Below are positions 7,231 to 16,257 of a stretch of DNA of 20,463 nt, piece by piece (within the stretch, counting starts at the first letter, position 1; each line of letters opens with the position of its first letter). Both the position numbers and the translations under genes were made by a program. A model generated the notes under the pieces. That model worked only from the letters and a program-made list of their open reading frames with translations. It made no database searches and had not been told where the DNA came from. Origin of the DNA: a virus; the IMG/VR virus record IMGVR_UViG_3300030090_001009, positions 1-20,463 of that record. One strand, given 5' to 3'.

Positions 7231-8004
7231 TTATACAACTGTCCAAGTTTCATCAGCACCAACCGTAACTGTTACACCTGATTGTATAGTAATTGGACCA
7301 AAGCTGCCAGCATTTTTACCATTTGTTATTGTGTAATCTTGAGTAATAGTTCTATCATTTTCCCAAAATATTTCATCTGAGCCACCACCAACTGCTCCGC
7401 CACCAGCAGCAGCCCAACTTAAAACTCCAGAAGCATTTGACACGAGAGCATAACCAGATACCGCTGCATCAGTGGCTGGTAATGTCCAAGTAAGGCTAGT
7501 AGAAACTGTTGCTGGTGCTTGAAAGCCTACATAATGACTACTATCATTGTCAGCAAACCTAAGATCATTTTGACCTTGTAAAGTAATACCATTTGCATCA
7601 AATAGCATTTGCTCTGTACCAGCTGAAGCAAATCCCATAATATTTGCTGACTTTCTAAATAAACCTAAATCTGTATCTGTATCAAAACTTAATGCTGGCG
7701 CAGCAGCACTATTAGAATCATCAATTAAAAGCTGCCCTGTCATAGTACCGCCAGCTTTAGATAATAACCCTAAATTAGCTTGGTCAATATTTCCTATTTC
7801 AGTAAATCCACCATTGCTTGAGTTTCTTATTTTTAAAATATTTGTTGTGGTATTTAAGAATGGCATACCAGCAACACATTGACTTGAAGCTAAATCAGAT
7901 GATTTTGAATTGCTTGATTGTATTGCAGCAAAAACATTATTAAGGTCAGTTCTTACATTCGCTCCTGAAGCATTTTCAATGGTGTAGTTTGTTACGTCAG
8001 CCAC
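7231..8004 (-). CDS. Tail fibre protein following J
   Basis: This encodes 257 residues from a GTG at 8004; GGAGGG lies about 13 bases upstream, and no ATG in frame gives a similar N-terminus. An N-terminal helical part (ASGANVRTDLNNVFAAIQSS) looks like the module that docks fibres on the tail. A middle section has KAGGTMTGQLLIDDSNSAAA and SFDTDTDLGLFRKSANIMGF, a repeat type known from phage fibres. Residues 206-257 are the C-terminal module shared with the fibre at 1984-3264. It directly follows J, so it is the best candidate for the fibre attached to the tail tip. No catalytic residues are seen. Confidence 0.85.
   Translation of the reverse strand: MADVTNYTIENASGANVRTDLNNVFAAIQSSNSKSSDLASSQCVAGMPFLNTTTNILKIRNSSNGGFTEIGNIDQANLGLLSKAGGTMTGQLLIDDSNSAAAPALSFDTDTDLGLFRKSANIMGFASAGTEQMLFDANGITLQGQNDLRFADNDSSHYVGFQAPATVSTSLTWTLPATDAAVSGYALVSNASGVLSWAAAGGGAVGGGSDEIFWENDRTITQDYTITNGKNAGSFGPITIQSGVTVTVGADETWTVV
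7234..7389 (-). repeat. C-terminal fibre module shared with 1987-2136
   Basis: Residues 206-257 of this fibre (GGGSDEIFWENDRTIT, then YTITNGKNA, then GPITIQSGVTVTVG) are the second copy of the module ending the fibre at 1984-3264. The DNA of the two copies differs at many synonymous sites, so the duplication is old or came by exchange with a related phage. Confidence 0.75.
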
Positions 8005-12708: not shown

Positions 12709-13216
12709 CAGCCAAATCTGTTGGCGCAGCTAATTCAAACTCAACTAATTCTCTATTTTCACTTGCTTTTCTATCAATGGCATATATTTCTTGCGGAAAC
12801 TCTACATTTGAATCCGCAGTTGCATTAGTGCCATCTGCAAAATTAACTGCATCTAAAAACTTGGCAAGTGTTCTTATTCTTGTAACTGTGGCGCCAGTAA
12901 GATCATTACCAGTTGTAGTTTCATTAACAGATAAAAGTATTGCTGACATTAATCCAGTTGCATTGCTAATTCTTATCATAGGTCTTGGTATCTGCCCTTT
13001 CTGGTATGCAAAACCATCTGCTTGTATTGGAAACCTTAAGTATTCATTGCCAGCCCATACAATTTTTCCATTAGCATTTAAATTACTTCCAGCATGGAAT
13101 CTATATATTGTTGTGGCACCATGTAATGCACTTGATAGTTGAAGTGTAAATAATTCAATAATCGCAGAGGGATTTATAGATTGTAAATTACTAAATACTG
13201 CTGAGTTTACTGACAT
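12644..13216 (-). CDS. Minor tail protein L-like, without the usual cysteine cluster
   Basis: This encodes 190 residues. SVNSAVFSNLQSINPSAIIE, then LFTLQLS, then NGKIVWAGNEYLRFPIQADG, then RPMIRISNATGLMSAI, and DRKASENRELVEFELAAPTD match the N-terminal domain of the lambda L family. In lambda and many relatives a C-terminal domain follows with four cysteines that bind an iron-sulphur cluster. Here the protein stops 12 residues after its only cysteine (HIPKRQC), so that domain is absent. The next gene reads in another frame over the end, but no cysteine-rich continuation is visible in any frame. L joins the tail tip and helps start tail polymerisation. It lies between M and K as in lambda, with TAATG coupling to M. 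Confidence 0.88.
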   Translation of the reverse strand: MSVNSAVFSNLQSINPSAIIELFTLQLSSALHGATTIYRFHAGSNLNANGKIVWAGNEYLRFPIQADGFAYQKGQIPRPMIRISNATGLMSAILLSVNETTTGNDLTGATVTRIRTLAKFLDAVNFADGTNATADSNVEFPQEIYAIDRKASENRELVEFELAAPTDLAGVHIPKRQCTRSIFPSIGTFN

Positions 13217-13569
13217 TATGATGTTGGTTCAAATACTTCTCTAAAGGTAGCTGTTATTGTTGCACGGTTATTATATGGAATCGTTTTATTCCAACTTTCA
13301 CATACAAATTGCATTGATGAAGATTCACCAGTTGGTGTGTATGTAAATGATTCTCTGTCTAAAGCTCTTGCATCTAAAAATGTTTCAATAGTATCTGCAT
13401 CTGTCTCTGATACATTCCAAGTGAAACTAAATTCTTTTGGATTTTGGTGTGCATCAAGTCCTAAAAAAATTCTATGTTCGTAACCATCTGCAAACTTAAC
13501 TGTTCTTGTATTAGGTTTATTTTTTTTTGATGTACCGTAAGAAGGTTTTATGTCTGGAAAAGTTGCCAT
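13216..13569 (-). CDS. Minor tail protein M-like
   Basis: This encodes 117 residues matching the Phage_min_tail family: MATFPDIKPSYGTSKKNKP, then VKFADGYEHRIFLGL, then LDARALDRESFTYTPTGESS, then WNKTIPYNNRATITATFRE. The length agrees with lambda M. It is a distal tail protein that joins the tube to the tip complex. Its stop and start both overlap the neighbours as TAATG, so tape measure, M and L form one coupled block. Nothing is missing or odd. The call rests on motif pattern and position between tape measure and L. Confidence 0.9.
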   Translation of the reverse strand: MATFPDIKPSYGTSKKNKPNTRTVKFADGYEHRIFLGLDAHQNPKEFSFTWNVSETDADTIETFLDARALDRESFTYTPTGESSSMQFVCESWNKTIPYNNRATITATFREVFEPTS

Positions 13570-15254
13570 TATGCTAATATTCCTCCCGGTCTTTTTTGTT
13601 GTATTAATTCAGATTGTACTGCAGCAGCAATAAGTCGTCCTAACTCTTTTCCAGCATTTTCATTACCTTCTACATTTGAACCAGAGGCATCTACATTAAC
13701 AACAATATTATTTGTAGTGCCAGCCATTTCACTATTTGGAATTATTGTGCCTGCAGTAGAAGGAACAAACAATTCTGGTCCTCTTTCGCCCACGATTGAT
13801 GGCTTACCCACAGGTGGTCTACCACCAGCAGCAAATCCGGGCAAATTAGAAAATATACCAAAACCAGTACTTTTTAAAAGTGTATTGATACCAAGTCTTA
13901 ATAACGAATTTGCCAAATCATTAACAATACTTTTTGCTGCTTCACCTAATGACTTTGTACCATTAATTGCACCAACCAAAGCATCTGATATTTGAGTACC
14001 TATAGTGTCACCTATTTCTGCAAAAGCATCTTTTATACCTTTTGTTTTATCTATAGTCTTATCTAACTTATCATTTTTATTATCTAAAAGTTTATTTATT
14101 TCTGCATTTTTTTGTGCTTCTTGAATTAAAGCATTTGTTTTTTCTTCATTGTGTACAAATTCTTTTTGTCGTGCTTCCTCTGTAATAATATTTTGTTTTG
14201 TAAGTTCTGCTGTACGTTCTTTTAAAAATTTATTTGCTTCTTTATTCCCAAACAATCCAAGCTTTACATCATCACCAAATTTAGTTTTGGTAAGTCTTAA
14301 TGCATCTTCTCGTGCTTTATTTTCTGCACCTAAAACATTTCCAAAACCTAATTTTCCAATATTTTGAAATCTTTTAAAAATTCTATCTAGTGCCTGTACT
14401 GCTTTTGTAGTCTGGTCTAAAACAAATTTTATTGTTGGTCCTAAAATATCACCAATAGTTCTAGCTAATGTTTGTACTGAATCTACAAGAGTTGATAATT
14501 TACCATTTAAGGTTGTTGCTTGCTTAGTAGCACCTCCAAAAAATGCACCGCCCTCACTTGTAAGATTTACTAAAGCTTGATTAACAAGATCAGCCCCAAT
14601 CTTACCTTTACGCATTGCAGATTCAAACTCCTCACCCTGTAATCCTGTAATTTTTTTAAGTTCAGTAGTAATATCAACTCCTCTTTCTAATAACTGCAAT
14701 TCTTCCTCTCTTTGTAATTTTCCTTTTGCTCGAATTTGTCCAAATGCTAATGCAATACCTTCTAAATCTGCGCCTGTTGCACCAGCCACGTTAGCTAACC
14801 TTTTTGTTGTATCAACAAGTGTTTCTGTTTCAAAACCAAATGCCTTTAATCTTTTTGTTTGTTCAATTAGTTCACTACTTGTAAACGGTGTAACAGCACC
14901 AAAATCTTGTAACTCTTTTATTATTTGGTTTGTTTCTACTAATGAACCAGTAAGAACCTCTAAGCTTTTTCTTTGTGTTTCAAGTTCTGCGGTTTGTACA
15001 AATATAAATCTTGCGGTTGCAGCAACTGCCAATGCCTTTAACAATGGTGCTATTGATCTTGTAAATGTTTTAACACCGCCTGCTGCACCTCTTGCAGCAT
15101 TACCATTGTTTCTAAATGAACGACTTGATCTGTCTAATCTGTTTTTTAATTTATTTGTATTATTAGCAAGAGTCTTTGTTATACGATCTGTCTGCTGCAG
15201 AGGTCTTATTGCATTTTGCGCATCTACTATTAATCTGACCGTTGATTGCGCCAC
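13569..15254 (-). CDS. Tail tape measure protein
   Basis: This encodes 561 residues from a GTG at 15254. Residues 1-60 are a charged helical N-terminus; a hydrophobic stretch lies near 66-86 (SIAPLLKALAVAATARFIFV). Residues 90-270 match the tape measure N-terminal family (ELETQRKSLEVLTGSLV, TPFTSSELIEQTKRLKAFG, NVAGATGADLEGIALAFGQI, REEELQLLERGVDI). A second helical and hydrophobic section follows, and the C-terminal part has FAAGGRPPVGKPSIVGERGP and ELFVPSTAGTIIPNSEM, the usual tape measure ending. This protein sets tail length and enters the host with the DNA. At 561 residues it is short, implying a tail somewhat under 100 nm. It follows the G/GT chaperone, as expected. Confidence 0.93.
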   Translation of the reverse strand: MAQSTVRLIVDAQNAIRPLQQTDRITKTLANNTNKLKNRLDRSSRSFRNNGNAARGAAGGVKTFTRSIAPLLKALAVAATARFIFVQTAELETQRKSLEVLTGSLVETNQIIKELQDFGAVTPFTSSELIEQTKRLKAFGFETETLVDTTKRLANVAGATGADLEGIALAFGQIRAKGKLQREEELQLLERGVDITTELKKITGLQGEEFESAMRKGKIGADLVNQALVNLTSEGGAFFGGATKQATTLNGKLSTLVDSVQTLARTIGDILGPTIKFVLDQTTKAVQALDRIFKRFQNIGKLGFGNVLGAENKAREDALRLTKTKFGDDVKLGLFGNKEANKFLKERTAELTKQNIITEEARQKEFVHNEEKTNALIQEAQKNAEINKLLDNKNDKLDKTIDKTKGIKDAFAEIGDTIGTQISDALVGAINGTKSLGEAAKSIVNDLANSLLRLGINTLLKSTGFGIFSNLPGFAAGGRPPVGKPSIVGERGPELFVPSTAGTIIPNSEMAGTTNNIVVNVDASGSNVEGNENAGKELGRLIAAAVQSELIQQKRPGGILA

Positions 15255-15279: not shown

Positions 15280-15809
15280 TTACCTTGTTTTGGCTTTTTG
15301 ACGATTTAATTCTTGTTTTTCCTTTTCATATTTAACTTCATAATATGCAGCCCAAAATACCAACTCCTCTTCTGTAATTAATTTTCTTAATTCTTGTAGT
15401 GTCTTACCTAATTTAGTTGCGAGAAAAAACTCAAAATTTAACCAGTTATCTCGCCTTAGTCGTTTTTTGCTGAATCAAGATTTACTTTTATATCCATCAT
15501 AAATATTTCTAAATCATTTAAGACAGTTTCAGGTAGAAATCTTTTTAGGTTTTCAGCATCAGCTGACGCAAAAGCTTTTGTGCCATCTTCGTTTTGCGCA
15601 AGTTGGCAAAGCAGCCTTGTTGATACGGCCAAAGCATCATCAGAACCAGTTGCAGCTTGTGCTTGCATCCTGTCGTATCTTGTAAGCGGTGGAAAATATA
15701 TATCTTTTAAATGTGTACCATCAGGTTTTTTTAATTCAAACTTCCTTCTTTCATGCATTACACCTTCATAAGCTTCTGTTATAAGGTCTACTGTTCTTTT
15801 TGCTGGCAT
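15280..15809 (-). CDS. Tail assembly chaperone GT fusion made by -1 frameshift
   Basis: This product reads the G frame from 15809 to the AAC ending the slippery heptamer (15462), slips back one base, and continues in the -1 frame to TAA at 15280-15282, for 176 residues (116 from G plus 60). The added part begins RLRRDNWLNFEFFLATKLGK, then LQELRKLITEEELVFWAAYY, and ends KQELNRQKAKTR. The pattern of an aromatic NWL--EF--A, a KLGKTLQELRK-like stretch, and E-ELVFW-AYYE is what C-terminal gpT-type extensions look like in many siphophages. That frame has no ATG, GTG or TTG start of its own giving this domain, and it fills the gap before the tape measure. In lambda, G and GT in a fixed ratio load the tape measure before the tube forms. 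Efficiency is unknown. Confidence 0.82.
15456..15809 (-). CDS. Tail assembly chaperone, G-like (in-frame product)
   Basis: This encodes 117 residues: MPAKRTVDLITEAYEGVMH, then RRKFELKKPDGTHLKDIYF, PPLTRYDRMQAQAATGSDDA, and LKRFLPETVLNDLEIFMMDI. Position between the major tail protein and the tape measure, size, and the slippery stop-proximal heptamer make it the gpG equivalent. The common product ends DSAKND; a minority should extend as described for the fusion. G is soluble and not part of the mature virion in lambda. It starts 28 bases after the major tail gene; no strong Shine-Dalgarno is visible upstream of the ATG. I judge its identity by context and by the frameshift rather than by a known motif. 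Confidence 0.88.
   Translation of the reverse strand: MPAKRTVDLITEAYEGVMHERRKFELKKPDGTHLKDIYFPPLTRYDRMQAQAATGSDDALAVSTRLLCQLAQNEDGTKAFASADAENLKRFLPETVLNDLEIFMMDIKVNLDSAKND
15462..15468 (-). promoter_or_regulatory. Programmed -1 frameshift site A_AAA_AAC
   Basis: The G frame reads gcA AAA AAC GAC TAA, so the heptamer has the X_XXY_YYZ form in the correct phase. It lies two codons before the G stop, and the -1 frame runs on to 15280. A_AAA_AAC is a known slippery heptamer in viruses, and tRNA re-pairing on AAA AAA is straightforward. I see no strong pseudoknot within the next 40 bases by eye, and no upstream Shine-Dalgarno stimulator. Confidence 0.85.
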
Positions 15810-15837: not shown

Positions 15838-16257
15838 CTATATAGCTGAAGTTATGGTACCACTTGTAATAAAGCTAATATTGATAACTTGTACTTCACC
15901 AAGTGTTGCTCCATATTCAGCACTTGTAATAATTCCAGCAAAACTTATTTTTTTTGCTGAAGTATCTCTATCAGGGAATAATTCAAATAATGCATCAGCA
16001 TTATCGCCTGTTGTTAAAACATCATCAATAAATGTTGTGTAACCTGCGCCTGTTTCACCCGGTGCATACAAAAGTTCTGCTGAACCTTCACCAGAAATTA
16101 AACCACCAACATTAGTTTTAAATGTATCCCCTTGTTTAGTTGTTTCTAGTACATCTTTGCTAATAGAAAGAGACCACGATCTTGTTTGGCCAACGTCAGC
16201 TTCTGTGCCGCCAGCATTTTCAAACATAATTTTCCCAACATCACCCTTGATAGCCAT
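15838..16257 (-). CDS. Major tail (tube) protein
   Basis: This encodes 139 residues beginning MAIKGDVGKIMFENAGGTEA, with DVGQTRSWSLSISKDVLETT, then KTNVGGLISGEGSAELLYAP, then FELFPDRDTSAKKISFAGII, and VINISFITSGTITSAI at the end. The SWSLSISKDVLETTKQGD segment (strand, then a turn typical of tail tube subunits) and length near 140 fit the lambda V/TP901-type tube family. It lies just before the tail chaperone, as in other siphophages. The ATG at 16257 is in frame with the conserved first strand. No Ig-like C-terminal extension is present, unlike lambda V, so this tube is of the short type. Confidence 0.88.
   Translation of the reverse strand: MAIKGDVGKIMFENAGGTEADVGQTRSWSLSISKDVLETTKQGDTFKTNVGGLISGEGSAELLYAPGETGAGYTTFIDDVLTTGDNADALFELFPDRDTSAKKISFAGIITSAEYGATLGEVQVINISFITSGTITSAI

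Follow-up and report, generated by a model that had tools for sequence, protein, structure and literature searches.

Does the small tail gene that lies upstream of the tape measure gene in this virus always end at its own stop codon, or do some ribosomes leave its frame to make a longer protein? In the window (the whole stretch of DNA that was analysed, 20,463 nucleotides), we consider programmed -1 ribosomal frameshifting of the lambda G/GT type to be the best explanation of this locus, with a probability of roughly 0.95. Three features raise the question:

15456..15809, minus strand: G, 117-aa predicted tail assembly chaperone, 0-frame product, stop codon TAA at 15458-15456
15468-15462, minus strand: putative slippery heptamer A_AAA_AAC (AAAAAAC), in phase, a single codon upstream of the G stop
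15280..15468, minus strand: T, -1 frame extension of 60 codons past the heptamer, giving a predicted GT fusion of 176 aa, stop codon TAA at 15282-15280

The 3' end of G reads GCA AAA AAC GAC TAA, from which the phase of the heptamer follows. The -1 frame has an upstream stop at 15477 and is thereafter open as far as 15282-15280, so that a slip on the heptamer would, according to the ORF analysis, yield a 176-aa GT fusion as opposed to the 117-aa G. A sequence-only reading of this stretch had described the in-phase A AAA AAC, and rightly so, but had placed it two codons before the stop, where only a single sense codon (GAC) intervenes. Its 60-codon -1 frame open to 15280 and its 176-residue product were both recovered here, the former with its stop and the latter as the length computed from the sequence, whereas the gap of 150 bases that it gave before the tape measure gene has to be corrected to 201 nt (G stop at 15456 to the GTG at 15254). 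The heptamer itself is not rare in the 20,463 nt (AAAAAAC occurs 15 times versus 13.7 expected, i.e., without excess), and a first-order model puts at about 1% the probability that a -1 frame stays open this long by chance; therefore, the case rests on the comparison with relatives.

An IMG/VR scan with G recovered 80 loci, and the matches to G in a phage collection were S-H1, MED4-117, MED4-184 (with P-HS2) and AG-345-A17. The close set comprised 84 sequences including the window virus, one of them (L083) cut off inside T. A_AAA_AAC or A_AAA_AAA was present in phase and at the same place in 81 of the 84, the window virus and S-H1 included; across these 84 sequences, only MED4-117 and MED4-184 were without it, and it was carried by all members of the window's clade whose T is complete. 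The position of the G stop shifts among relatives (0, 1 or 7 codons past the heptamer) with the heptamer and T fixed. Among 68 distinct contexts the site was only GCA/GTA AAA AAC/AAA, and its final codon was never AAT, yet AAC accounts for just 29% of the Asn codons in these genes. In the wider classification described below, A_AAA_AA[C/A] was found in all 156 loci of the window's clade, a count in which loci share kinship and some contigs enter twice. Relatives without the heptamer, or with an early stop in the -1 frame, which had been named as evidence that would speak against a frameshift, thus do not occur within this clade; the heptamer is absent from remoter relatives, which nevertheless retain an out-of-frame T together with another conserved slip site.

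A break between two frames could also reflect an assembly error or a decaying gene, i.e., an indel in a gene that is continuous in relatives, and a broken gene would likewise look like two ORFs in different frames. However, further scans combined with a T profile and ORF logic gave 434 classified loci from many samples, and in none of them (0/434) do G and T share one frame, T being always out of frame (outside the classification stood five loci without a G ORF, one weak T match and four loci without T, mostly on short or cut contigs). The isolates MED4-117, MED4-184, P-HS2, S-H1 and KBS-S-2A are also without a single-frame G-T, and T is under purifying selection, and we accord the indel explanation a vanishingly small probability.

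Judged by its substitutions, the -1 frame encodes protein under selection. Over 59 distinct sequences, median dN/dS was 0.18 in the T (-1) frame, as against 0.96 for the G phase and 1.9 for the third frame (0.16, 0.93 and 2.1, respectively, in a larger set), and there were zero stops in T versus at least three in each of the other frames; T also showed low dN/dS in other clades (0.23 in B, 0.09 in C). T matched phrog_337, annotated as 'tail protein' (E=8e-6), and phrog_14766 (E=2e-5), and its similarity to lambda T was weak (hhalign E 0.004, probability 9%, 23% identity over 39 columns covering the first ~40 residues); a Pfam search with T returned scattered weak matches and no clear family. 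T might instead be a separate small gene with its own start, reached, e.g., by coupled re-initiation past the G stop, in which case there would be no GT fusion. The annotation of the Synechococcus phage S-H1 (L001) contains such an ORF, a separate hypothetical protein (AZB50580.1, 2893-3036) that starts inside T, and start-like codons are present in the middle of T in some relatives. However, the first 20 T codons are without ATG, GTG or TTG in 55 of the 59 distinct sequences (120 of 129 in the larger set), and no start codon in T is conserved across the 59, yet this stretch is conserved as protein. A separate gene would also leave the in-phase heptamer and the hairpin downstream of it unexplained, and we regard it as extremely unlikely.

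This hairpin comprises two helices:

15454-15419, minus strand: hairpin, beginning 7 nt past the heptamer, with outer arms GCGAGA (15454-15449) and TCTCGC (15424-15419)
15447-15444 and 15431-15428, minus strand: inner helix of the hairpin, AACT and AGTT

As in the canonical -1 cassette of heptamer, spacer and 3' structure, a predicted RNA fold follows the heptamer a few nucleotides downstream, here past a 7-nt spacer. When codons were shuffled synonymously, with the T protein and its codon usage kept, the median z in clade A was -3.6, and extra stability at p<=0.05 was found in 89% of the distinct clade-A sequences; the excess was confined to the first T window and appeared nowhere else along T. 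For the window sequence alone, a dinucleotide shuffle gave an unremarkable z of -0.92. The hairpin arms use codons that are rare elsewhere in T, e.g., CTC encodes Leu there in 136 of 158 loci versus 3 of the 281 remaining T Leu codons. Pairing is kept with other bases in L068 (GAGAAA/TTTCTC), L138 (CAAGGGA/TTCCTTG), S-H1 (GCAGG/CCTGC) and KBS-S-2A (GGAGC/GCTCC). In one fixed register, pairing in helix 1 holds for only 78% of cells, without any two-sided change, and the inner helix is the only one with strict column covariation (C-G to U-A, 7 of 29 rows); the column-wise signal is modest, since several variants form their pairs in a register that is shifted. Rfam gave nothing credible for the region, the one match being attributable to chance.

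The same GT protein could be made one step earlier, if RNA polymerase added an A on the A run and the longer mRNA were then translated normally; the site offers six or seven A, and one added A would lead into the same frame. However, six A is a short run for polymerase slippage, and in related clades of the same arrangement the run is down to three A (A_AAG). Slippage by the ribosome fits both the hairpin and the phase of the heptamer, and transcriptional slippage appears very unlikely to us.

The genes around G and T are ordered as major tail protein, G, T and tape measure, with a minor tail protein further downstream:

15838..16257, minus strand: major tail protein, directly upstream of G; phrog_10528, E=4e-35
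13569..15254, minus strand: tape measure protein, 561 aa, GTG start 25 nt past the T stop; Pfam TMP_3, E=3e-21; phrog_9959, E=5e-32
13216..13569, minus strand: minor tail protein, downstream of the tape measure; phrog_14, E=5e-20; Pfam Phage_min_tail, E=1e-18

G belongs to phrog_20784 (E=3e-27), a family without annotation, and phrog_344, 'tail assembly chaperone', was matched by 13 of the 29 aligned G members (best 8.9e-5). An AlphaFold2 model of G built from a 29-sequence alignment (pLDDT 88) had as its best PDB match the HK97 tail assembly chaperone 2OB9 (Foldseek E=8e-4; VIA Z 9.6 versus 6.9 for the next entry; rmsd 3.8 over 98 residues at ~10% identity), and G is accordingly predicted from this model to have a tail assembly chaperone fold. 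A PDB sequence search with the G profile gave nothing relevant, G did not match lambda G by sequence, and a pattern scan of bacterial genomes for G found no relative. The G/GT interpretation of the sequence-only reading is thus supported by a heptamer and T conserved in the clade, by the predicted chaperone fold of G and by the match of T to a tail-protein family. Elsewhere in the window, 1984-2140 and 7231-7390 (minus strand) encode the C termini of two distinct proteins of the tail region, which are near copies of each other and represent a shared end domain (GGGSDE.F.END.T...YTITNGKNA...GPITI.SGVTVTVG..ET).

In the mechanism that we infer, ribosomes translating G would reach GCA_AAA_AAC, where the hairpin 7 nt downstream would slow them, and a minority would slip back by one base, the Lys and Asn tRNAs re-pairing on AAA AAA. 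The slipped ribosomes would miss the TAA close by and continue in the T frame, producing the 176-aa GT beside the 117-aa G. By analogy with lambda, the tape measure protein would be coated by G, and the major tail protein would be recruited via T by the few molecules of GT, so that the slip rate would set the G:GT ratio, which in the lambda model governs tail assembly (PMC5009743) and might do so here as well.

The 434 classified loci split into five groups, which differ in the sequence at the G/T junction:

Group A (window virus): 156 loci, A_AAA_AA[C/A], -1
Group E (S-H1-like): 81 loci, A_AAA_AA[C/A], -1 (L371 read by hand)
Group C (MED4-184/P-HS2-like): 81 loci, no heptamer, invariant A_AAG_GAA, -1
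Group B (AG-345-A17-like): 80 loci, TT[AG]_AAA_AG[CTG], T in +1
Group D (KBS-S-2A-like), -1 part: 25 loci, 24 with A_AAA_AA[C/A], one with G_GGA_AAG
Group D (KBS-S-2A-like), +1 part: 11 loci, ATG_AAA_AGC

For L371, reading the G frame by hand gave -1 with A_AAA_AAC, its +1 score having come from a longer chance ORF. Within the KBS-S-2A-like clade, the +1 loci with ATG AAA AGC (L349, L350, L352-L356, L358, L359, L362 and L363) stand beside -1 relatives with A_AAA_AAC, which, as read from the frames of G and T, is a switch of direction. L360 carries the lambda heptamer G_GGA_AAG at the equivalent place. A Lys codon would re-pair at every A-rich site type. We assign the AAA_AG sites to putative +1 slippage from the sole re-pairing that fits; a -2 slip at these sites was rejected on inspection, because the Lys codon lies right against the T-frame stop (TGA/TAA) and only AAA to AAA by +1 re-pairs. 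On a G tree of 70 sequences and 117 columns, a short alignment with long branches, among them the very long one of L365, a doubtful family member, the +1 site requires four changes, three of which are forced by well-supported branches, and A_AAG arises once. The hairpin follows the direction of the shift, being strong in the -1 lineages (z of -2.2 in C, -2.8 in E and -3.4 in the -1 part of D, besides the -3.6 of A) and weak or lacking in the +1 lineages (-1.3 in the +1 part of D, from seven sequences, and -0.2 in B). It is likely that one homologous marine/aquatic G-T family has repeatedly swapped its frameshift signal with T kept out of frame, using A_AAA_AAC or A_AAG, each with a hairpin (-1), G_GGA_AAG (-1) or AAA_AG (+1, hairpin missing or weak). 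If so, a set G:GT ratio would be conserved as a need, and the decoding trick, even its direction, would be free to turn over.

In the +1 clade (L168-L247 and L004), GAG GCT AAA GCC is invariant in 58 of 58 distinct sequences, ~18 nt before AAA_AG. GAG is otherwise a minority codon there, and the segment holds a possible hairpin (GGC-TAAA-GCC) and an SD-like GAGG; it is possibly an upstream stimulator of +1 slippage.

Phage G/GT frameshifting is a textbook trick, and the window virus adds another probable case of a known type. The analysis fills in the T half of the tail chaperone, hitherto missing, in a large group of uncultured marine siphophages and in cultured cyanophages whose records leave T unannotated or list it as a separate gene; it also suggests a likely function for the unannotated phrog_20784. 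The wider family represents a natural experiment on the evolution of frameshifting, in which related genes would reach the same T domain by -1 or +1 sites.

The cultured relatives infect Prochlorococcus and Synechococcus, and a search of the open-licence literature turned up no study of frameshifting in this set of cyanophages. The Prochlorococcus phages MED4-117, MED4-184 and P-HS2 resemble the window virus in having T in the -1 frame and a hairpin at a similar position (G is ~47% identical to that of the window virus, and T 66% identical to a clade-A-like T sequence), but they have the single-codon A_AAG_GAA instead of the heptamer, A_AAG being a known -1 shift-prone tetramer (PMC5009743). 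T is unannotated in the records of these three phages and of KBS-S-2A, which, like S-H1, carries the heptamer of the window virus. In E. coli, A_AAA_AAC is far less shift-prone than A_AAA_AAG (PMC5009743, a review), which agrees with the view of the sequence-only reading that this heptamer is a less common choice, though it is listed for the g-t genes of the haloarchaeal siphovirus HCTV-2 (PMC5009743); the HCTV-2 heptamer is identical to that of the window virus, but its host is archaeal. With lambda gpG/gpGT, the window virus shares the gene order, the -1 direction, a slip site just before the G stop and T in the next frame, whereas it differs from lambda in having A_AAA_AAC rather than G_GGA_AAG, a hairpin 7 nt downstream and a shorter T of 60 codons.
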